A DNA stretch of 22,747 nucleotides from a virus: positions 1-22,747 of the IMG/VR virus record IMGVR_UViG_3300031884_000146. One strand, written 5' to 3'. This document shows positions 3,111 through 19,445 of this stretch, piece after piece. Position 1 is the stretch's first letter, and each line of letters starts with the position of its first letter. The notes under the pieces are model-generated. The model made no database searches and had not been told where the DNA came from. It was given only the letters and a program-made list of their open reading frames with translations. The position numbers and the translations under genes are program-made.

Positions 3111-3812
3111 TTATTGTACTCCTTCTATTTTAGATAGAATGCAATTTTTAAAATGATATCTTTTCATATTTGACAATCCACCTTTTTTATTACAATGTGG
3201 ACACATAATTATTTGTTGTGGGCCGGAATTTATACCCTTAGCATTTTCTTTTTGTTTCATTCTTGATTCCATTGATCTAGATTCGGTTTTTTTGCCTAGA
3301 TTCCATGGTATGTTTCCCAGCAGCGATCTACTTATATTTTCACATCTTTCAGCAGTAAACTTTACTCCTCGACGAGGTGCAACTGACGCTTCAATATGTT
3401 CTTTGGTTTGTTTTCTTCCTCGGAGTTTTGCCGCCGTCGCTTCAACTGCTTTAGGGTCTCGTTTTTTACCTTTCCCAGTATTTCCATTTCTAATTTTAGT
3501 AGCAATCTGTTTTTTTAGTTGCTCATCGGATACAACTCTACCGGCGGAACCATCGCCACCGTCTGTCTTATTATGTAGTATTCCGGTTCTTTGATCTTTG
3601 CGACCATACCAAATAATAAGTCTTCGTTCAATTGCTAATGCACCAATATCCGTTAAATTTCGTTCAACAATTATTACTCGGTTGAGGGCTTTGGGTGGTC
3701 TAACTTCACCCTTGCCTTTCGTCCATGCACGCAAATCTTTACCTTTACCGATATAATAAGGACTACCGTCTTCACGTAAATATGCGTACACATAAAATTC
3801 TAATGATGACAT
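3111..3812 (-). CDS. GIY-YIG homing endonuclease (Seg-like) inserted between gp25 and gp6
   Basis: A 233-residue protein with an N-terminal GIY-YIG nuclease domain: Tyr7-Val-Tyr9, then PYYIGKG (Tyr19-Tyr20-Ile-Gly22), a likely catalytic Glu62 in IERRLI, and HNKTDGGDG at 80-88. The middle (about 95-195) is rich in Lys and Gly and carries repeated short helices of the kind found in NUMOD-type DNA-binding regions. The C-terminus has a zinc finger, Cys204-x2-Cys207-x12-His220-x3-Cys224. Such free-standing enzymes cut cognate alleles lacking the gene and spread by repair; the exact target is unknown. It sits between two genes that are usually adjacent in T4-like phages. A late-promoter octamer lies 22 nt before the ATG, and the gp6 ribosome binding site falls in its last codons, so gp6 expression has been preserved. 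I infer insertion as a mobile element. Confidence 0.88.
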
Positions 3813-12359: not shown

Positions 12360-13253
12360 GTGTCTATAAAACCAAGAAAACCAATAAATTATCTAAACAA
12401 TCGTGATATCCTAAAAGAAATCCATATCAGCAAAAATAGCTTTTGTTATTATACCCAACCTGAATATCATCGTTATGACCTCATCATTGATATGCCAGAA
12501 GCTGATATTATAACTAGTTTAAAGTTCGCATCAGAACCAGAACAGATTCAAGCAGCAAAAGAAGCGAGAGCAGCTAGGCTCTCTATTGAAACCGAGACTA
12601 AGATTAGTCCTGACGACATTCTTACTGAAGACTTGATTTTTCGCGTGATGACATGGGATCATATTCCATTAAGCCAGAAGCAACCAAGGAAGACTATCAA
12701 GAAGAAGACAGCCAAAGATATTTTAATTTTCTACGATGATGACGGTGAAGAATTTGCTGACTTAGAAGATAAGACGACAAAGGCTGAAGTGGATGATATG
12801 GTCCATGTCAAAGTCAACTTCCCTCCTTTTCAGCATTTCAAGCTAGACGAGACTGGAACTATGCGATGCGTAGGCAAGTCACATTGGATTGGTGGCATTG
12901 AGAACGGACACTTCTCAAAGGATCATGGTAACATCACAAACAAACTCGCTCGCATGTATATGATGCTATGCGAGAAGTATGCTATGAAGTTCAATTGGCG
13001 CGGTTATACCTATAACGATGAGATGAAGAACTCTGCTATCCTTCAACTCACTTATGTTGGTCTAAGATTCAATGAAGCGAAGTCTGCTAATCCATTCGCA
13101 TACTATACTGCGGCTATAACAAATAGTTTCTGTAGGGTACTCAACACTGAGAAGCGTAGCCAGAATATCCGTGACGATATACTTGAAATGAATGGAATGA
13201 ATCCATCATTCTCAAGACAAAATAAGGACATGAAGTTCCAGTTAGACACTTAA
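12360..13253 (+). CDS. 55: Late-transcription sigma factor gp55, with a long N-terminal extension
   Basis: A 297-residue protein starting at GTG 12360, preceded by AAAAGGA with a short gap; no ATG fits better. The C-terminal part (about 190-290) is the gp55 sigma region: KLARMYMMLCEKYAMKFNWR, NSAILQLTYVGLRFNEAKSA and FAYYTAAITNSFCRVLNTEK, resembling sigma region 2, which melts the TATAAATA box. T4 gp55 is 185 residues, so about 110 extra residues lie upstream: an N-terminal block (INYLNNRDILKEIHISKNSF) and an acidic/basic linker. gp55 replaces sigma70 on host RNA polymerase, helped in T4 by gp33 and the gp45 clamp. It opens the rightward block ahead of gp47/gp46, as in T4-like cyanophages, and faces a sigma70 promoter, as expected for a gene needed before late transcription begins. 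Confidence 0.87.
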   Translation: MSIKPRKPINYLNNRDILKEIHISKNSFCYYTQPEYHRYDLIIDMPEADIITSLKFASEPEQIQAAKEARAARLSIETETKISPDDILTEDLIFRVMTWDHIPLSQKQPRKTIKKKTAKDILIFYDDDGEEFADLEDKTTKAEVDDMVHVKVNFPPFQHFKLDETGTMRCVGKSHWIGGIENGHFSKDHGNITNKLARMYMMLCEKYAMKFNWRGYTYNDEMKNSAILQLTYVGLRFNEAKSANPFAYYTAAITNSFCRVLNTEKRSQNIRDDILEMNGMNPSFSRQNKDMKFQLDT

Positions 13254-13267
13254 GGTTACCAGAATCA

Positions 13268-13296
13268 TTGTTTTTTATGATAAAGAGTAGTATAGT
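13268..13296 (+). promoter_or_regulatory. Possible sigma70-type promoter immediately before gp47
   Basis: TTGTTT (13268-13273) and TATAGT (13291-13296) with a 17-nt spacer. The predicted start would fall at or next to the gp47 ATG (13303), which has no good ribosome binding site, so a leaderless message is possible. Weaker than the gp55 promoter; read-through from gp55 is the alternative. Confidence 0.35.
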
Positions 13297-13302
13297 ACAA
13301 GT

Positions 13303-14316
13303 ATGACAAATCTATTTAAAAAAGCAGCAGTCATGACAGACCTTCATATAGGACTGAAGTCAAACAGTGTAATACACAATGAGGATTGCTTAGAATTCGT
13401 ACAATGGTTTGTTAATAAGGCAAAAGAAGAAAGTTGTGATACAGCAATCATTTGTGGTGACTGGCACAACCATCGTGCTAGTATTAACATCCATAGCTTA
13501 CACTATTCAATGCGTTGCCTAGAGTTGTTAAATGCAAATTTCAGCAGAGTCCTGTTCTTGACCGGAAATCATGACCTGTATTACCGAGAAAAAAGAGATA
13601 TCCACAGTGTGGCTTGGGCCGGATACTTAGATAACATTCATATAATAAATGATATTTATACCGAAGGTGACGTAACGCTGTGCCCGTGGTTGGTAGGAGA
13701 TGAAATAAAGCAAGTTAAAAAAATTAAATCCAAATATACCTTCGGACACTTTGAACTTCCTAATTTTTATATGAACGCACAGGTGCTAATGCCAGATCAT
13801 GGGTTTGTCAGCGACGATGATTTTGCAGATACAGGAACCGTATTCTCTGGACACTTCCACAAGCGTCAATCTCGCAAGAACATCTGGTATACAGGGAATG
13901 CGTTTCCGCATAACTACGCTGATGCTGGTGATGATGCTCGCGGTATGATGGTGTTAGAATGGGGAGAAGATCCTGTATTTCATTCTTGGCCCAATCAACC
14001 TATCTTCCGTGTCTACAAACTCAGTTCTGTATTAGACAATCCGAAAGGACTACTCTTGCCAAAAGCTAGCATCCGTGTGCATCTTGACATTGATGTATCA
14101 TATGAAGAGGCTAACTATATCAGGGAGACGCTTATTCCAGAATACAGTCTAAGAGAAGTATCATTGATTCCAATCAAGAACGAGCAACTCTCGCAAGAAG
14201 GTGGCGGTGATATCAAGTTTGAGAGTGTTGACCAGATCGTGCTAGAGAGCATCACTAATATTGAGAGTGAGTTCTATGATTCTAAACTATTGCTAGAGAT
14301 TTATAACGGTCTATGA
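13303..14316 (+). CDS. 47: Recombination endonuclease subunit gp47 (Mre11/SbcD-like)
   Basis: A 337-residue metallophosphoesterase, close to the 339 residues of T4 gp47. The five metal-binding motifs are in order: Asp13-x-His15 (TDLHIG), Gly-Asp53 (CGDWHNHR), Asn89-His90-Asp91 (TGNHDLYY), His149 (FGHFELP), and His184-x-His186 (SGHFHKRQ). With gp46 it forms the SbcCD/Mre11-Rad50-type complex that resects DNA ends for recombination-dependent replication and helps degrade host DNA. All catalytic residues appear intact. The N-terminus (LFKKAAVMTDLHIGLKSNS) matches cyanophage-type gp47 starts; an internal ATG at 13333 would remove it, so 13303 is preferred. Its stop overlaps a downstream ATG (ATGA). 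Confidence 0.95.
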   Translation: MTNLFKKAAVMTDLHIGLKSNSVIHNEDCLEFVQWFVNKAKEESCDTAIICGDWHNHRASINIHSLHYSMRCLELLNANFSRVLFLTGNHDLYYREKRDIHSVAWAGYLDNIHIINDIYTEGDVTLCPWLVGDEIKQVKKIKSKYTFGHFELPNFYMNAQVLMPDHGFVSDDDFADTGTVFSGHFHKRQSRKNIWYTGNAFPHNYADAGDDARGMMVLEWGEDPVFHSWPNQPIFRVYKLSSVLDNPKGLLLPKASIRVHLDIDVSYEEANYIRETLIPEYSLREVSLIPIKNEQLSQEGGGDIKFESVDQIVLESITNIESEFYDSKLLLEIYNGL

Positions 14317-14434
14317 TTATCTTAAAACGATTAAAGAATGCTTTGAACAAGGAATTCCTGCTGAAGAAGCAGCGTCTTTATCTAATCTTAGAATGCTTCC
14401 GTGGAAGCAGAACTTAATGAGGAACTATATTTAA
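14313..14434 (+). CDS. Small ORF between gp47 and gp46, apparently one base out of frame
   Basis: Two overlapping reading frames occur here. The ATG at 14313 overlaps the gp47 stop (ATGA) and starts MIILK, but runs into TAA at 14417 with an unlikely basic sequence. The next frame, open from 14297 to TAA 14432-14434, reads like a real protein (IKECFEQGIPAEEAASLSNL, then RMLPWKQNLMRNYI) and its stop overlaps the gp46 ATG (TAATG), but it has no ATG, GTG or TTG near its start. One extra A in the AAAA run at 14324-14327, or a -1 slip at TTA-AAA, would join them into a 40-residue protein. Function not recognised. It could be a genuine frameshift, an assembly error, or a non-standard start. Confidence 0.45.
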
Positions 14435-14706
14435 TGTCAATTGTACTTAAGAATATCACTCTACGTAACTTCCTTTCTATCGGGGCGGTTTGCCAAGCAG
14501 TCAACTTTGATAGCAAAGAACTCACGCTCATCCTAGGAGAGAATCTGGATCTAGGCGGAGACGGCGCTCGTAACGGTACAGGCAAGTGCGTTGGCATAAA
14601 TACTGTAGTAAAAGTAAGAAACACCGTTACCGGCGAAATATTTGAAACTACTGTAGGAGACTTGTATGCCACCAGCAAAGAAAACCAAACTAGAAATAGT
14701 AAATGA
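14434..14706 (+). CDS. 46: gp46 N-terminal fragment fused to split-intein N-part (IntN)
   Basis: A 90-residue protein. Residues 1-51 are the Rad50/SbcC-like start of gp46: VLKNITLRNFLSIG, LTLILGENLDLGG and the P-loop up to ARNGTGK. Instead of Ser/Thr, Cys52 follows and begins an intein block A: CVGINTVVKVRNTVTGEIFE, then TTVGDLY. The ORF stops 39 residues after that Cys, before any block B. The normal Walker A motif (A-R-N-G-T-G-K-T) is thus cut exactly after its Lys; the missing Thr-Thr is the first extein sequence of the ORF at 15730. ATG 14434 overlaps the previous stop (TAATG) and has GAGG upstream. On its own the product cannot bind ATP. It should splice in trans with the C-part. No upstream start gives a better match to gp46. 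Confidence 0.88.
   Translation: MSIVLKNITLRNFLSIGAVCQAVNFDSKELTLILGENLDLGGDGARNGTGKCVGINTVVKVRNTVTGEIFETTVGDLYATSKENQTRNSK
14587..14703 (+). other. Split-intein N-fragment (IntN), about 39 residues, block A only
   Basis: From Cys (TGC 14587) to the codon before the stop. Block A features: Cys1, Thr6, Val8, a Gly-x-Ile turn and TVGDLY, where ordinary inteins have their first beta strands. The last ten residues (SKENQTRNSK) are encoded by bases that also encode the start of the endonuclease and may be dispensable. Naturally split inteins usually break at the endonuclease position near 90-120 residues; a break after 25-40 residues is the uncommon type known from AceL-TerL-like inteins. Confidence 0.85.
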
Positions 14707-15754
14707 TGTGTTAGATCATAGGATAAAAAACCTAGAACCTAATCTGCGGGCTGAAATATGCAACAAACTCATGGAGCATAAATTTCCCATGACAAGCATG
14801 AAACAATGCGAATCTGCTGCCCGGGCGCTACTATCTTTGCCCGGAATAGGATCAGGAAGCGCCCGATATTGGACTGAACGGGGATGGGACAGTTTGCAGG
14901 CTGAAATAAAAGCCAAAGAGAATATGAAGACTATTAATAAGTCTGCAAATAGAAATAGCCCATACTCAATTATCTTTTGGACTAAAAAAATTAACCCTAA
15001 AACAAACCTCAACTATACTACAGCCGAAGCGGAACAGGAACGAAATTCAAGACGACCAATACGAAAGGAATATTGGATTGCAAAGGGATACAATGAAGTG
15101 GATGCTATAGAATTAGCCAAAGCCCAAAAATTAAAAAATAATATAGCCGGTGCTGCAGGATCAAAAAATCGTAGCCCGAGCAGATTGCGAGCGCATAGTC
15201 ATCGAACCGCTGACTACTGGATGCTGCGTGGTTTTTCGGAAGACGATGCGATTGCTAAGGTGTCAGCAGCACAAAAATTGTTCTCCATTGATACATGTAT
15301 ATCAAAGTACGGTGAAATTGAAGGGAAGAAAGTTTGGAGTGCTAGGCAGAAACAATGGTTAAACTCGCTAAAAGCATCCGGGATTCACGGTGGATACTCT
15401 AAAATATCAATGACCTTTTTTACTCATATAAGCGAAAAAATTCCTGACATATTGTTCGGGGTAAATGAAGCAATAATCACTGTTTCCGGATTATCGTACA
15501 CGGTCGATTGTTTACACCAAACTAACAAAAAAATAATAGAGTTTTTCGGTGACTATTGGCATGCGAACCCTATCAAGTTTTCAGCCGGTGATATGATAAA
15601 AGGTAAACTTGTTGAAAACATATGGAAACATGACGAAAATAAATTAAAGACACTAACCGATGCCGGTTATCAAGTACTAGTAGTATGGGAATCGGAATAC
15701 AATAAGGACAAACAAGGAACAATAGACCAATGCGTAAACTTTCTGAATCACTAA
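14666..15754 (+). CDS. Vsr-like (EDxHD-type) homing endonuclease nested between the split gp46 halves
   Basis: A 362-residue protein in a different frame from both neighbours. It starts 41 nt before the end of the IntN gene (AGGAG at 14655-14659, 6 nt before the ATG) and ends 25 nt inside the IntC gene. The C-terminal domain (about 240-355) is Vsr-like: YTVDCLHQTNKKIIEFFGDY with Asp281 and Glu292, Trp298-His299, Lys-His322-Asp323, then YQVLVVWESEY. This matches the EDxHD family described with fractured genes. Upstream are three copies of a Tyr-Trp-x2-[Arg/Lys]-Gly-aromatic motif at Tyr68, Tyr136 and Tyr184, likely DNA-binding repeats, and CISKYGEIEGKKVWSARQ. The likely job is to cut uninterrupted gp46 near the P-loop codons and so spread the whole cassette. 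Target not determinable here. HNH and GIY-YIG motifs are absent. Confidence 0.82.
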   Translation: MPPAKKTKLEIVNDVLDHRIKNLEPNLRAEICNKLMEHKFPMTSMKQCESAARALLSLPGIGSGSARYWTERGWDSLQAEIKAKENMKTINKSANRNSPYSIIFWTKKINPKTNLNYTTAEAEQERNSRRPIRKEYWIAKGYNEVDAIELAKAQKLKNNIAGAAGSKNRSPSRLRAHSHRTADYWMLRGFSEDDAIAKVSAAQKLFSIDTCISKYGEIEGKKVWSARQKQWLNSLKASGIHGGYSKISMTFFTHISEKIPDILFGVNEAIITVSGLSYTVDCLHQTNKKIIEFFGDYWHANPIKFSAGDMIKGKLVENIWKHDENKLKTLTDAGYQVLVVWESEYNKDKQGTIDQCVNFLNH

Positions 15755-16101
15755 CACGCAAGTTTGTAGATAGTGTAAGTTTAGAAAATTTAGAAATTGA
15801 GACCGATACCGGTTGGCAACCGATAACCCATATTCATAAAACTATACCATATGATGTATGGGAAATATACACAGCCAGCGGATTACATCTAGAATGTGCA
15901 GATGATCACATCGTCTTTGATCATAACTATAACGAAATTTTTGTTAAGAATCTTATAGCAGGTGTTTCGTGTATTCAAACTAGCATCGGTTTGGACCGCA
16001 TTAAATCGGTAACTAGAAAGTCTTACGCCGAAAACATGTATGACATTACCGTTGATTCCCCTGATCATCGTTATTATACTAATAATATTCTATCTCACAA
16101 T
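15730..16101 (+). other. Split-intein C-fragment (IntC), 124 residues with blocks B, F and G
   Basis: Block B is GLHLECADDHIVF (residues 51-63), with His60; the usual Thr three places before the His is Ala57 here. Block F is ENMYDITVDSPDHRYY and block G is NNILSHN, with penultimate His123, terminal Asn124 and Thr at +1. There is no endonuclease domain inside. The first dozen residues (MRKLSESLTRKF) overlap the end of the endonuclease gene and look like an added leader. Confidence 0.87.
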
Positions 16102-18027
16102 ACGACACTCATCCAAGGTTTGTCTTATGTCCTGTTTGGTTCCCCCATCAATAACATCCGCAAAGACAATCTGATCAATCGTACCAACGGTAAAGGTATG
16201 ATGTGTACCCTTGAGTTCTCTGCTCATGGCACTGAATACAAGATTGAGCGTGGACGCAGACCAAATACACTCCGATTCTATGTCAATAACAATCTTCAAG
16301 AAGGCAAAGATGATGCCCAAGGAGAAAACAAGGAAACCCAGGTTCAGATAGAACGGGCTATCGGAATGACTCCTGATATGTTCAAGCACATCATTGCATT
16401 GAACACATATTCAGAACCATTCCTCTCTCTGCCTTCAGGTGAACAGCGAAAGATCATTGAGCAACTGCTTGGTATCACCCTTCTATCAGAGAAAGCAGAA
16501 ATACTAAAAGAAAAGATCCGTGACAACAAGGACACTATTCAATTAGAAGAATTCCGGGTCAAGGCTATCGAAGAAGCCAACAAGCGTGTCCAAGAACAGA
16601 TCGAGGCTCTGAAGCGAAGGCAGAATCTATGGCTTAAGAAGCATGATGAAGATTTAAGCAAGTTAGTCAACGATTATGATGAATTGAGTAAGATAGACGT
16701 TGAAGCCGAACTTCAGGCTCACAAAGATTTAGCAGTGTACAACGACAACAAGAAGAGGAAAGATACTCACGATTCCTTGATTGCCCGGCAGATCGCCTGG
16801 AAGCAAAAGATAGATGCTGATCTCAGTGCTTTGCAGAAGTCATACGACAAACTGAGTCACATTGATATAGATGCTGAACTACGGACTCATAAAAATTTAG
16901 CCGAATATAACAGGAGATCAGCCGAATTATCTAGCATTACTACGGAGATCGCGACTCTAGGAGTCAGTATCGCTAAAGAACAGAAAGCGATTGACAAATT
17001 AGAAACCGAGATCAAGACCCTAGAAAGCAACACCTGCTATGCTTGTGGGCAAGATTTCCATACGCATAATCATGATAAGGTCTTGTCAAACAAGAGGATT
17101 CTTCTAGAAGGTGCAAAGAATGATCTTGCCCAATTCCAGATTGCTCTAGAAAAAAATAAAAATTCTGTATTCATTTTGGGCGCGATTCCCGAACCTTATT
17201 ATAAGACTGAATATGAGGCTATCAAGCATAGTTCTGAACTCGAAAACATCCAAAATCAGATCAATGCAAAGAAGGGAGAATCTGATCCGTATGCTGACCA
17301 GTTGTGCGATTATTCTGACATCGTTCTAGGAACCATACCGGTAACGCACTATGATACTGAAGCAGAGGCAATCGAACATCGCAGTACTGTCGCGAATCTT
17401 CTGCGGCATATCGCTATCAAGGATGCTGAGGTTGACCCATACGCAGAACAAGTCTCTGACATGGAGAAACAAGCCCTACAAGAGATTGACTTCAACAAGA
17501 TCAATCAACTCACCCGTACCGGAGAGCATCTGAAGTTCCTCCTTGATCTGCTGACTAGCAAGGATTCCTTCGTCCGCAAGAAGATCATTGATCAGAATTT
17601 GTCTTATCTGAATTCTAGGCTCACAAACTATCTTGACAAGATCGGGCTACCACACACAGTCATCTTCAAGAACGACTTGTCAGTTGAGATCACAGAACTC
17701 GGTAGAGAGTTGGATTTCTATAACCTTAGCAGGGGAGAGATGAACCGTCTCATTCTTGGATTATCCTTCGCGTTTAGAGATGTATGGGAAAATCTTTACT
17801 GTCCCATCAACGCGATATTCATTGATGAGTTAGTCGATGCGGGGATGGATAGTGTAGGGATTGAAAATTCTATGGCTCTGCTTAAAAATATGACTAGAAC
17901 TCGAAACAAATCAGTGTGGTTAATCAGTCATAAAGATGAGTTGGTTAATAGAGTAGATAGTGTAGTTAAAGCAGTAAAGGAGGGAGGATTTACTTCCTAC
18001 TGTAGTGAAAAAGAGTCGGAAAGATAA
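15730..18027 (+). CDS. 46: Split-intein C-part (IntC) fused to gp46 C-terminal region (Rad50/SbcC-like ATPase)
   Basis: A 765-residue protein. Residues 1-124 are IntC, ending NNILSHN. Thr125-Thr126 complete the P-loop and LIQGLSYVLFGSP continues gp46. Next come the N-terminal ATPase lobe (to about 260), an ascending coiled coil, a zinc hook Cys436-x2-Cys439 (TCYACGQ), a descending coiled coil, and the C-terminal lobe with signature YNLSRGEMNRLILGLS (664-679), Walker B AIFIDELVDAGMD (695-707) and switch His734 (WLISHKDEL). After trans-splicing gp46 would be 692 residues, against 560 in T4; the excess is in the coiled coils, where each arm contains a duplicated segment. ATG 15730 has AAGGAA 10 nt upstream, inside the endonuclease gene, so the fragment is separately translated. 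It partners gp47. Without splicing it lacks a P-loop. Confidence 0.93.
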   Translation: MRKLSESLTRKFVDSVSLENLEIETDTGWQPITHIHKTIPYDVWEIYTASGLHLECADDHIVFDHNYNEIFVKNLIAGVSCIQTSIGLDRIKSVTRKSYAENMYDITVDSPDHRYYTNNILSHNTTLIQGLSYVLFGSPINNIRKDNLINRTNGKGMMCTLEFSAHGTEYKIERGRRPNTLRFYVNNNLQEGKDDAQGENKETQVQIERAIGMTPDMFKHIIALNTYSEPFLSLPSGEQRKIIEQLLGITLLSEKAEILKEKIRDNKDTIQLEEFRVKAIEEANKRVQEQIEALKRRQNLWLKKHDEDLSKLVNDYDELSKIDVEAELQAHKDLAVYNDNKKRKDTHDSLIARQIAWKQKIDADLSALQKSYDKLSHIDIDAELRTHKNLAEYNRRSAELSSITTEIATLGVSIAKEQKAIDKLETEIKTLESNTCYACGQDFHTHNHDKVLSNKRILLEGAKNDLAQFQIALEKNKNSVFILGAIPEPYYKTEYEAIKHSSELENIQNQINAKKGESDPYADQLCDYSDIVLGTIPVTHYDTEAEAIEHRSTVANLLRHIAIKDAEVDPYAEQVSDMEKQALQEIDFNKINQLTRTGEHLKFLLDLLTSKDSFVRKKIIDQNLSYLNSRLTNYLDKIGLPHTVIFKNDLSVEITELGRELDFYNLSRGEMNRLILGLSFAFRDVWENLYCPINAIFIDELVDAGMDSVGIENSMALLKNMTRTRNKSVWLISHKDELVNRVDSVVKAVKEGGFTSYCSEKESER
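16618..16953 (+). repeat. Protein-level tandem duplication in the ascending coiled coil of gp46 (56-residue period)
   Basis: Residues 297-352 and 353-408 of the ORF at 15730 align without gaps: Arg-Gln, Trp, then DEDLSKL/DADLSAL, DYDELSKIDVEAEL / SYDKLSHIDIDAEL and AHKDLAVYN/THKNLAEYN. Period 56 residues equals eight heptads, so coiled-coil phase is kept. The zinc hook follows the second copy. Confidence 0.75.
17176..17475 (+). repeat. Protein-level tandem duplication in the descending coiled coil of gp46 (50-residue period)
   Basis: Residues 483-532 and 533-582 align: LGAIPEPYYKTEYEAIKH with LGTIPVTHYDTEAEAIEH, and later SDPYADQ with VDPYAEQ. It lies on the other side of the zinc hook from the 56-residue duplication and at a comparable distance from it. 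Confidence 0.75.
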
Positions 18028-18030
18028 ATA
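18023..18030 (+). promoter_or_regulatory. Late promoter octamer GATAAATA upstream of the second GIY-YIG gene
   Basis: Plus strand 18023-18030 is GATAAATA, overlapping the gp46 stop codon, 60 nt before the endonuclease ATG at 18091. It is the same octamer found before the other GIY-YIG gene. Confidence 0.55.
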
Positions 18031-18033
18031 GTT

Positions 18034-18063
18034 GTGAGTCGCGGGAGTGCAATCCCCACTCAC
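18034..18063 (+). other. Stem-loop after gp46, in the leader of the GIY-YIG gene
   Basis: GTGAGT (18034-18039) pairs with ACTCAC (18058-18063), and GGGA (18043-18046) with TCCC (18053-18056), loop GTGCAA. There is no T-run after it, so it is a weak terminator at best. It may be a 5' mRNA structure of the late endonuclease transcript. Confidence 0.4.
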
Positions 18064-18090
18064 TCTAATGCTATCAAAGGAAACATCAGC

Positions 18091-18840
18091 ATGAATATTT
18101 ATCACCCTACTATTCCATATATCTATAAGTGGACACACCTTGCTACCGGCAAATGGTACATAGGATCAAAAGTTAGACAGGGATGGAACCCTGATCGTCA
18201 CGAAGAATACCTTTGCTCAAGTAAAGAAGTAAAACCACTAATCTTAGAAAATAGAGAAGAGTGGATATATGAAATATTACATACCGGTGATCCTGAATAC
18301 ATTGTGTCTTTAGAAACTACTATATTAATCAGTTTAGATGCACGAAATGATCCTATGAGCTTTAATCAACACAACGGTGACGGTTTATATAATCGTTTCG
18401 GTGTTAAAGAAAACAAAGAGACGAGACTAAAAAAGCGAGAAGCAAGATTAGGTGCAAAGAATCCTATGTTTGGTAAAAAAGGTAATCTATCACCTCATTA
18501 TGGAAAAACTTATTCTGATGAGCGGCGTGAGAAACAAAGCTCTGGGGTAAAAAAATATAGCGAATGTCGTCCTGCTGCACACAACGAAAACATCTCTAAA
18601 TCATTGCTAGGAAATCCTAAACTATCGGCTAGAATGCAGGGCAAGAATAACCCGATGTTTGGTATTCCGGCATCGGATTACAATAAAGCGATGACAACTT
18701 TGAAAAATTCAGGAGATAACAATCCAATGAAGAAGCCGGAGCATCAACGCACATGCGATCATTGCGGTAAAACGGTTGCTAAAAATCATTATACAATGTA
18801 TCACGGCGATCAGTGTAAAAGTAACCCAAATGCTCTGTAG
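18091..18840 (+). CDS. GIY-YIG homing endonuclease with NUMOD3-like repeats and zinc finger
   Basis: A 249-residue protein from ATG 18091, chosen because AAAGGAA lies about 8 nt upstream and the GIY-YIG motif starts at residue 10; an in-frame GTG at 18034 lies inside a stem-loop. Residues 10-25 carry Tyr-Ile-Tyr and KWYIGSK; Glu75 (SLETTIL) is the likely catalytic Glu; FNQHNGDG follows at 91-98. The DNA-binding half has NUMOD3-type motifs GAKNPMFGKK (121-130), GKNNPMFGIP (184-193) and GDNNPMKK (208-215). The C-terminus is a zinc finger, Cys222-x2-Cys225-x12-His238-x3-Cys242, with exactly the spacing of the finger in the GIY-YIG gene at 3111-3812. Placed directly behind gp46 with its own late promoter. 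Probably mobile; its target could be nearby phage genes. Confidence 0.87.
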   Translation: MNIYHPTIPYIYKWTHLATGKWYIGSKVRQGWNPDRHEEYLCSSKEVKPLILENREEWIYEILHTGDPEYIVSLETTILISLDARNDPMSFNQHNGDGLYNRFGVKENKETRLKKREARLGAKNPMFGKKGNLSPHYGKTYSDERREKQSSGVKKYSECRPAAHNENISKSLLGNPKLSARMQGKNNPMFGIPASDYNKAMTTLKNSGDNNPMKKPEHQRTCDHCGKTVAKNHYTMYHGDQCKSNPNAL

Positions 18841-18878
18841 AAAATATATTGACTACTTCACAAGAGATAAATCATAGT

Positions 18879-19445
18879 ATGACATCTCCTAGCAAAACAA
18901 AAGGATCAGGGTTCGAACGAGAGGTCGCTAAGTTTCTTAGCGGATTATACAGTGAATCATTCGTTAGAGTTCCTAATTCCGGTGCCTACATTGGCGGAGC
19001 AAATGCCTATCGCAAAACAACGTTAGACGGAAATCAAGCGAAGTCTTTCAAAGGCGACATTGTTCCTCCTGACATTTGGACTCACTTTAATTCTGAATGC
19101 AAAAACTATGCAGACTTCCCCTTTCACTTACTGCTTACCGGCAACTGTAAACAATTTGATACTTGGTTAGGTCAACTTATGACAGTAGCTGATGAAGATG
19201 ATTTAAATATTTTATTCCTCAAGGTTAGTCGTAAGGGCAAGTATGTTGCAGTCCAAACTAAGTTCACTTGGGTCACCGACAACTTTTTATACTACAGTTC
19301 ATCTAAGACAGGTGACTGGCTAATAATAGAATTCGAACATTTTTTTCAGCACAACAAAGACCTTCTTAAAGCATATTCAAGCACAGTGACACCAACAGAC
19401 ACCACGTCAGGCAACTTGCTCACTATCAACACCGCTTTAGCTTAA
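18879..19445 (+). CDS. PD-(D/E)XK nuclease, Holliday-junction-resolvase-like
   Basis: A 188-residue protein from ATG 18879. Motifs: Glu14 in GSGFEREVAKFLSGLY, Asp60 in FKGDIVPPD, and Glu73-Cys-Lys75 (SECKNY), the order and spacing of Hjc-like PD-(D/E)XK enzymes. The N-terminal SKTKGSGFERE is typical of these resolvase-like nucleases. The final 25 residues are Thr/Ser-rich and probably disordered. A TTG at 18849 would add ten residues, but it has no ribosome binding site and the conserved domain starts after the ATG; TTGACT there may instead be a promoter element. Position after gp47/gp46 fits a role in recombination or junction processing, which is inferred. It may act on branched DNA during replication or packaging. 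Confidence 0.7.
   Translation: MTSPSKTKGSGFEREVAKFLSGLYSESFVRVPNSGAYIGGANAYRKTTLDGNQAKSFKGDIVPPDIWTHFNSECKNYADFPFHLLLTGNCKQFDTWLGQLMTVADEDDLNILFLKVSRKGKYVAVQTKFTWVTDNFLYYSSSKTGDWLIIEFEHFFQHNKDLLKAYSSTVTPTDTTSGNLLTINTALA

Follow-up and report, generated by a model that had tools for sequence, protein, structure and literature searches.

The recombination ATPase gene gp46 carried by IMG/VR virus record IMGVR_UViG_3300031884_000146 is, with high confidence, fractured by a split intein inserted between the lysine and the threonine of its Walker A motif. The DNA analysed, which we call the window, is the whole stretch of 22,747 nucleotides (positions 1 to 22,747 of the record), and an earlier note on it had claimed that gp46 is split exactly in the Walker A P-loop, a claim that coordinates and residues bear out. 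Across its junction the N half reads GDGARNGTGK/CVGINTVVKV, placing the boundary between extein and intein (slash) after the Walker A lysine, and the C half reads ILSHN/TTLIQG, the extein resuming with Thr-Thr-Leu-Ile. The joined exteins (51 + 641) give a protein of 692 residues with the A-x4-G-K-T P-loop restored, again as the note had it. Both halves match the SbcC-like PHROG profile phrog_77: positions 294-333 of the profile are covered by the N half (E = 1.6e-4) and positions 334-956 by the C half, beginning with its residue 125 (E = 1.2e-88), and the two profile segments adjoin exactly (gap 0, overlap 0). The 692-residue gp46 is very probably made by protein trans-splicing. These results add a recombination ATPase to the genes fractured by split inteins, with an insertion site, the P-loop, that the unspliced halves would be unable to form. 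The features concerned are as follows (ORF, open reading frame; nt, nucleotides).

14434..14706, + strand: gp46 N-half ORF, 90 residues, stop codon at 14704-14706, phrog_77 match, AGGA at 14420-14423 before the ATG
14434-14586, + strand: N-extein within the gp46 N half, 51 residues, ending at the Walker A Lys
14587..14703, + strand: N-intein, 39 residues, Cys1 (block A), beginning CVGINTVVKV
14655..14659, + strand: Shine-Dalgarno-like AGGAG for the endonuclease, within N-intein codons, 6 nt from the ATG at 14666
14666..15754, + strand: homing endonuclease ORF, 362 residues, in the +1 frame relative to both gp46 halves, with a predicted C-terminal Vsr-like nuclease domain
15714..15719, + strand: Shine-Dalgarno-like AAGGAA for the C half, 10 nt from the ATG at 15730
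15730..16101, + strand: C-intein, 124 residues, modelled HINT fold, block B CADDH, block F YDITVDSPDH, His-Asn end
15730..18027, + strand: gp46 C-half ORF, 765 residues, made up of C-intein and C-extein
16102..18024, + strand: gp46 C-extein from the Walker A Thr, 641 residues
13303..14316, + strand: gp47, an SbcD-like nuclease and partner subunit, directly upstream of the gp46 N half

The two gp46 halves of the window lie in one common reading frame, and the endonuclease ORF shares 41 nt with the N half and 25 nt with the C half; the ORF list also offers a longer start for the N half, a GTG at 14401. A short N fragment (39 residues) combined with a long C fragment (124 residues) is the layout of an atypically split intein.

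Filled sites, empty sites and the intein

Searching viral contigs with the C half gave 94 relatives, of which 80 were kept, representing 79 distinct loci. The exteins align with intact gp46, a comparison that the earlier note had proposed: the Lys-Thr junction is uninterrupted in 67 of the 79 gp46 loci, fractured in 11, and in one (L038) the N region is absent, and 59 of the 67 unbroken loci read DGARNGTGKTTL at the junction. Six of the 11 fractured loci, all on other records, are almost identical to the window, and L037, L047 and L053-L055 are diverged. Five other IMG/VR records differ from the window at 0, 0, 0, 2 and 2 positions over 3594 nt, which speaks against an assembly artefact as the source of the gap between the halves; the sixth near-identical record, L039, has only part of the C half and matches the window over that part. 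Further loci were taken from a scan with the C-intein (24 loci) and a scan with a C-intein alignment (80 kept of at least 467 relatives). The gp46 intein set referred to below consists of 31 loci of our choosing, 25 of them with distinct C-intein DNA. Two divergent types of gp46 host occur among these loci, the L132 type sharing 23% identity with the window in the C-extein and 61% in the C-intein.

The residues on which splicing depends are retained throughout this set. Cys1 is present in all 25 distinct gp46 inteins (24 read directly, L181 through L182), and each of the 25 distinct C-inteins has A-D-x-H in block B, the Asp and His of block F, the terminal His-Asn and a Thr or Ser at +1. Across a 31-member C-intein alignment D58, H60, D105, H113, H123 and N124 are invariant, and in a wider set H113 is replaced by Gln in 2 of 17 members (Coodle and SCTP-2 TerL). 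That the C part is an intein, as had been proposed from the sequence, is supported by three kinds of comparison. The C-intein profile matches VidaL (6e-12) and gp41-1 (2e-11) in the PDB, and also Cat, DnaX, PolB16 and NrdJ-1; the Pfam family Intein_splicing matches 27 of the 31 alignment members at E <= 0.01, with the C-intein of the window at 29.4 bits, under the curated cut-off of 35.8; and the structure model of the C-intein (predicted local distance difference test, pLDDT, 92.6) has the HINT fold, shown for the C part only. The best fold match of this model is VidaL, with 31% identity over 102 columns and a root-mean-square deviation of 1.4, and the fold search found 45 chains at E <= 0.001, the rows listed being inteins or intein-like domains. 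The ratio of nonsynonymous to synonymous divergence (dN/dS) of the C-intein is 0-0.21 across ten pairs, indicating purifying selection.

Separate halves and the case for trans-splicing

The stops and start codons point to separate translation of the two halves. In all 25 loci the first C-intein codon is, or adjoins, a start codon (ATG, or GTG in L134). The AGGAG ahead of the endonuclease ATG coincides with N-intein codons for Val-Gly-Asp, and 22 of the 25 gp46 loci have, at the corresponding position of the N-intein, an ATG with GGAG or GGGG ahead of it (the exceptions are L154, L174 and L181). The split of gp46 persists without the endonuclease, because two loci have lost the enzyme and yet stay split: in L183 a single stop lies between the halves, and the C half still has an AGAGGAA and an ATG to itself; in L180 the C half begins at what used to be the endonuclease start. 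The endonuclease of L037 carries a frameshift, with both gp46 halves open.

These three loci bear on programmed frameshifting, by which a +1 shift into the endonuclease and a -1 shift out of it would produce one intein-endonuclease polypeptide that splices in cis. Such a mechanism would fit the overlaps between the ORFs and the arrangement of frames, with the halves in one frame and the endonuclease in +1 in most lineages (a pattern absent in L132, L165 and L180). We nevertheless consider it very unlikely, since neither overlap in the window contains an X-XXY-YYZ slippery heptamer, start codons mark the beginning of the C-intein in every locus, L183 has a plain stop where no endonuclease remains, the C half of L180 is opened by the old endonuclease start, and the halves of L037 are intact beside a frameshifted endonuclease.

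The insertion might alternatively be removed from the mRNA as a group I or group II intron with its endonuclease, making the intein-like parts irrelevant. Phage introns with endonucleases do occur. TerL of ICP1 is RNA-spliced (PMC10448857), so that there is precedent for this explanation; we give it hardly any credence for gp46, however, because no Rfam match at E <= 1 was found in 13200-18900 and because both intein parts are conserved at the protein level and under purifying selection, with a HINT fold in the C part. Equally negligible, in our estimate, is the prospect that the halves assemble into a working ATPase non-covalently and without splicing. Split proteins can complement one another, but splicing residues would not then be expected to stay conserved across 25 distinct loci, and the intein would sit inside the P-loop of the unspliced complex.

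Several observations weigh against trans-splicing of two functional halves and have to be set beside the evidence above. The block B Thr is replaced by Ala in all 25 gp46 C-inteins and in 31 of 31 alignment members; this position is known to vary among inteins. A clear AGGAA precedes the C-half start in just 16 of the 25 loci, mostly of the window-like type, and conserved Gly-Glu/Asp codons account in part for the GGAG ahead of the endonuclease. Among the 25 C-exteins, that of L153 is broken by a frameshift and that of L167 by a stop after 55 residues, error and decay being indistinguishable here, and L154 has a frameshift in its N-intein. An intact second gp46 is possible beyond the fragmentary records. 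Splicing itself we infer, from sequences and structure models.

Some of these points could also be read as signs that gp46 is dead or dispensable, its halves decaying, or that another recombinase substitutes for it, and the fragments do leave room for an intact copy elsewhere. This we regard as highly improbable. Among the 25 distinct loci the C-extein is complete to its stop in 18 and cut by a contig end, open as far as it goes, in 5 more, and that of the window is complete and repeated in other assemblies. The frameshift of L154 is contradicted by sister contigs, L156, L158 and L161 having identical C-intein DNA and an open N-intein, and the low dN/dS of the C-intein is not that of a decaying sequence. 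No second gp46 was found in 20 fractured records (9 + 2 + 9) of up to 289 kb, none rated 90% complete; the check for an intact copy elsewhere that the earlier note had set for its claim thus turned out in favour of the claim, within the limits of these fragments. Its proposal that the halves are made separately, and that a complete P-loop would require their trans-splicing, likewise gains support from the HINT fold and the PDB profile matches of the C part, from the splicing residues kept in 25 of 25 loci, from purifying selection and from the persistence of the split in L183 and L180.

The endonuclease and the mobility of the cassette

Under the mechanism we propose, a cassette of N-intein, +1-frame endonuclease and C-intein would have homed into the Walker A codons between Lys and Thr. 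Each gp46 half would be translated from its own start, carrying an intein fragment of 39 or 124 residues; the fragments would associate, Cys1 and Thr+1 would perform trans-splicing and Asn124 would cyclise, and the spliced 692-residue gp46, its A-x4-G-K-T P-loop intact, would pair with gp47. The endonuclease, translated from the internal Shine-Dalgarno-like site in the N-intein codons, would spread the cassette to empty sites, presumably by cutting the uninterrupted gp46 site. The phage presumably needs gp46 for growth.

Divergence at synonymous sites (dS) is lower in the intein than in the exteins, which is what homing predicts. We compared ten pairs of our own choosing (nine gp46 and one TerL), and the dS of both the N-intein and the C-intein is below that of both exteins in 10 of 10; the endonuclease is below the exteins in all 8 pairs in which both members have one, and the dS of the C-intein is less than half the lower extein value in 7 pairs [for N-intein, C-intein and endonuclease: L130/L151, 0.14, 0.32 and 0.34 against exteins of 1.1 and 0.82; L169/L178, 0.23, 0.25 and 0.16 against 0.84 and 1.2; L222/L223, 0.30, 0.04 and 0.16 against saturated exteins]. 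We regard a homing parasite that targets P-loop codons as a better explanation of the cassette than a timing control. The earlier note had suggested that splicing could time recombination late in infection, a suggestion we do not retain: we found no regulatory evidence for it, both halves follow gp47 on the same strand, and a scan for promoters and terminators gave more matches than shuffled sequences and nothing usable for regulation.

The nuclease domain itself is supported, but more weakly than the intein. In a Foldseek search the C-terminal domain of the endonuclease resembled I-Bth0305I (probability 1.00, E = 0.06) and Vsr (probability 0.99, E = 0.09), and the NCBIfam vsr model gives a weak match (E = 0.025); a Vsr-like nuclease is a tentative assignment. 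Relatives of the endonuclease ORF are present in other loci. Against homing by a Vsr-like enzyme stand the following. The full-length endonuclease model is weak (predicted template modelling score, pTM, 0.35), with three mitoribosomal chains, taken as chance hits, outranking I-Bth0305I, and a sequence search of the PDB with the endonuclease alignment found no match. The ten pairs are not independent; the contrast in dS is modest for L130/L037 (0.42 against 0.70) and L155/L164 (1.4 against 1.6), and L174/L176 approaches saturation. In the N-intein, overlap with the endonuclease could by itself depress dS.

The endonucleases at L132:2214-3266 and L138:2998-4005 are related to that of the window and have another C-terminal domain, GIY-YIG-like by eye, which the Pfam family MUG113 matches in L138 only and not in L132. 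This difference suggests that the nuclease domain has been swapped in these two loci.

A P-loop intein family and its known relatives

The gp46 cassette belongs to one intein family, which is found at the Lys/Thr or Lys/Ser step in gp46, in TerL and in one DnaB-like and one AAA protein, phage ATPases that are not related to each other. The TerL genes of the cultured Ackermannviridae phages Kuja, BX-1 and Coodle have continuous inteins at the same K/TT step, the C parts of which are 42-50% identical to the C-intein of the window. Host classification took in L148-L234 and seven earlier loci. The hosts in L148-L234 are gp46, of both types, and TerL, with four loci unclassified (L161 too short; L228, L231 and L233 close to neither reference); in L228 the intein is followed by an AAA domain and in L233 by a DnaB-like domain, both at a P-loop site and on contigs of bacterial metagenome-assembled genomes. 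A tree of 71 C-inteins clusters by host gene, requiring 7 host changes against 25.4 with shuffled labels, and the C-intein may have had a single origin in each host gene; the tree does not resolve its deep forks, so that the intein may have passed between TerL and gp46 once or several times and in either direction.

Some TerL members of the family encode the endonuclease and the intein in the same DNA. The N part could be located by motif in all but 15 of 73 loci, and those 15 were outside the test for overprinting, in which 22 loci of our choosing, each with a long +1 endonuclease, were compared with synonymous shuffles. In the 17 split loci (13 gp46 and 4 TerL) the intein frame has 35-57 stops across the endonuclease, mostly near the shuffled numbers; L173 and L155 are somewhat below them, counts as low as theirs arising in 9 and 31 of 1000 shuffles, respectively. 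The TerL loci L196, L197, L219, L222 and L223 (L222 and L223 being a close pair) have 0 stops in the intein frame, against shuffled means of 14-23, and 0 of 1000 synonymous shuffles reached zero in any of them; their endonucleases, of 278-313 residues, lie in the +1 frame. The intein frame of L189, which was outside the shuffle test, is likewise open. Since the intein frame is open through the whole endonuclease in these TerL relatives, one stretch of DNA encodes two proteins, and from this, together with the dN/dS of 0.08 in the endonuclease frame of L222/L223, we conclude that these continuous inteins contain an overprinted endonuclease.

This arrangement offers a tentative account of the gp46 fracture, to which we give rather less than an even chance. 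An intein family that targets P-loops and carries a +1-frame endonuclease started within N-intein codons may have left the split as a remnant, once stops were tolerated in the second frame and the C half had gained its own start; atypically split inteins could then arise through overprinting, and not through domain insertion. Their origin becomes testable with the TerL relatives in which the endonuclease is overprinted, and the 25 distinct gp46 inteins are diverse natural split inteins with a short N fragment that may serve protein engineering. As a separate observation, a split C-intein stands at the beginning of the C half of SCTP-2 TerL (L122:4001-4894), for which no N half was located, and by eye another intein-like start seems to come after RGLSISLLY.

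Several known systems share parts of this arrangement. The fractured genes that Dassa et al. are said to have described in 2009 reportedly consist of an N-half ORF, a free-standing endonuclease with a Vsr-like nuclease and a C-half ORF, with a split intein, and come from phage-rich metagenomes. They have the same order of ORFs as the window, with the endonuclease ORF between the halves, and the window differs in its gp46 host, in a split near the N end of the protein and in a +1-frame endonuclease that overlaps both halves. AceL-TerL is an atypically split intein. A short N fragment and a long C fragment are the mark of such inteins (PMC10189870, on PolB16 OarG), and VidaL, Cat and PolB16 OarG share this layout with the window; VidaL, its best match in both sequence and structure, has another host protein and 31% identity over the aligned part. 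In the split PolB intein of the jumbo Pseudomonas phage MIJ3 an endonuclease gene also lies between the halves (PMC6892783), but the host is PolB, the endonuclease is of the HNH type and the intein begins with Ser.

Insertion into a P-loop is also known. The TerL1-a intein of mycobacteriophages is a P-loop intein, and insertion between Lys and Thr is termed classic (PMC5050341). Both TerL1-a and the Ackermannviridae TerL inteins interrupt the same Walker A Lys/Thr step as that of the window; they lie in TerL, and the three of the Ackermannviridae are continuous. Closest in host is gp46 of phage SCTP-2 (MF360958, gene 539; L118:1918-4683), annotated as hypothetical, which has an intein at the same K/TT junction; unlike that of the window it is continuous, has Ala first by eye and matches the gp41-1 intein. 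The nearest precedent we have seen for the overprinting in TerL is the ShiLan-type HNH insertion, in which an endonuclease lies out of frame within an in-frame insertion (PMC11855218). That insertion has no splicing domains, whereas in the present family there is an intein, either enclosing the overprinted endonuclease (TerL) or split (gp46). We found no split intein in gp46 in the searchable literature, mainly titles and the beginnings of abstracts, with intein databases and supplements outside its scope, and priority for gp46 is unproven for that reason. Within these bounds the novelty that the earlier note had claimed for gp46 holds: gp46 appears to be new as a host of a split intein, and fractured genes, atypically split inteins and P-loop insertion were already known.

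The identity of gp46 is also consistent with its motifs and neighbours. The C-extein contains, by eye, what we take to be the CxxC hook (CYACGQ), the LSRGE signature and Walker B (FIDE), so that the features of an SbcC-Rad50 protein are present (Walker A once the halves are joined, hook CxxC, signature, Walker B and an SbcD partner); the AAA_23 model found no match within the window. The partner, gp47, matches phrog_100 and lies directly 5' of gp46, and a late sigma factor precedes it. A second endonuclease ORF, of the NUMOD3/homing-endonuclease kind, lies directly behind gp46 (window 18034-18840). By eye, the minus-strand ORF at window 3111-3812 resembles GIY-YIG enzymes; its NUMOD3 match is weak (E = 0.26), and it adjoins baseplate-like genes.

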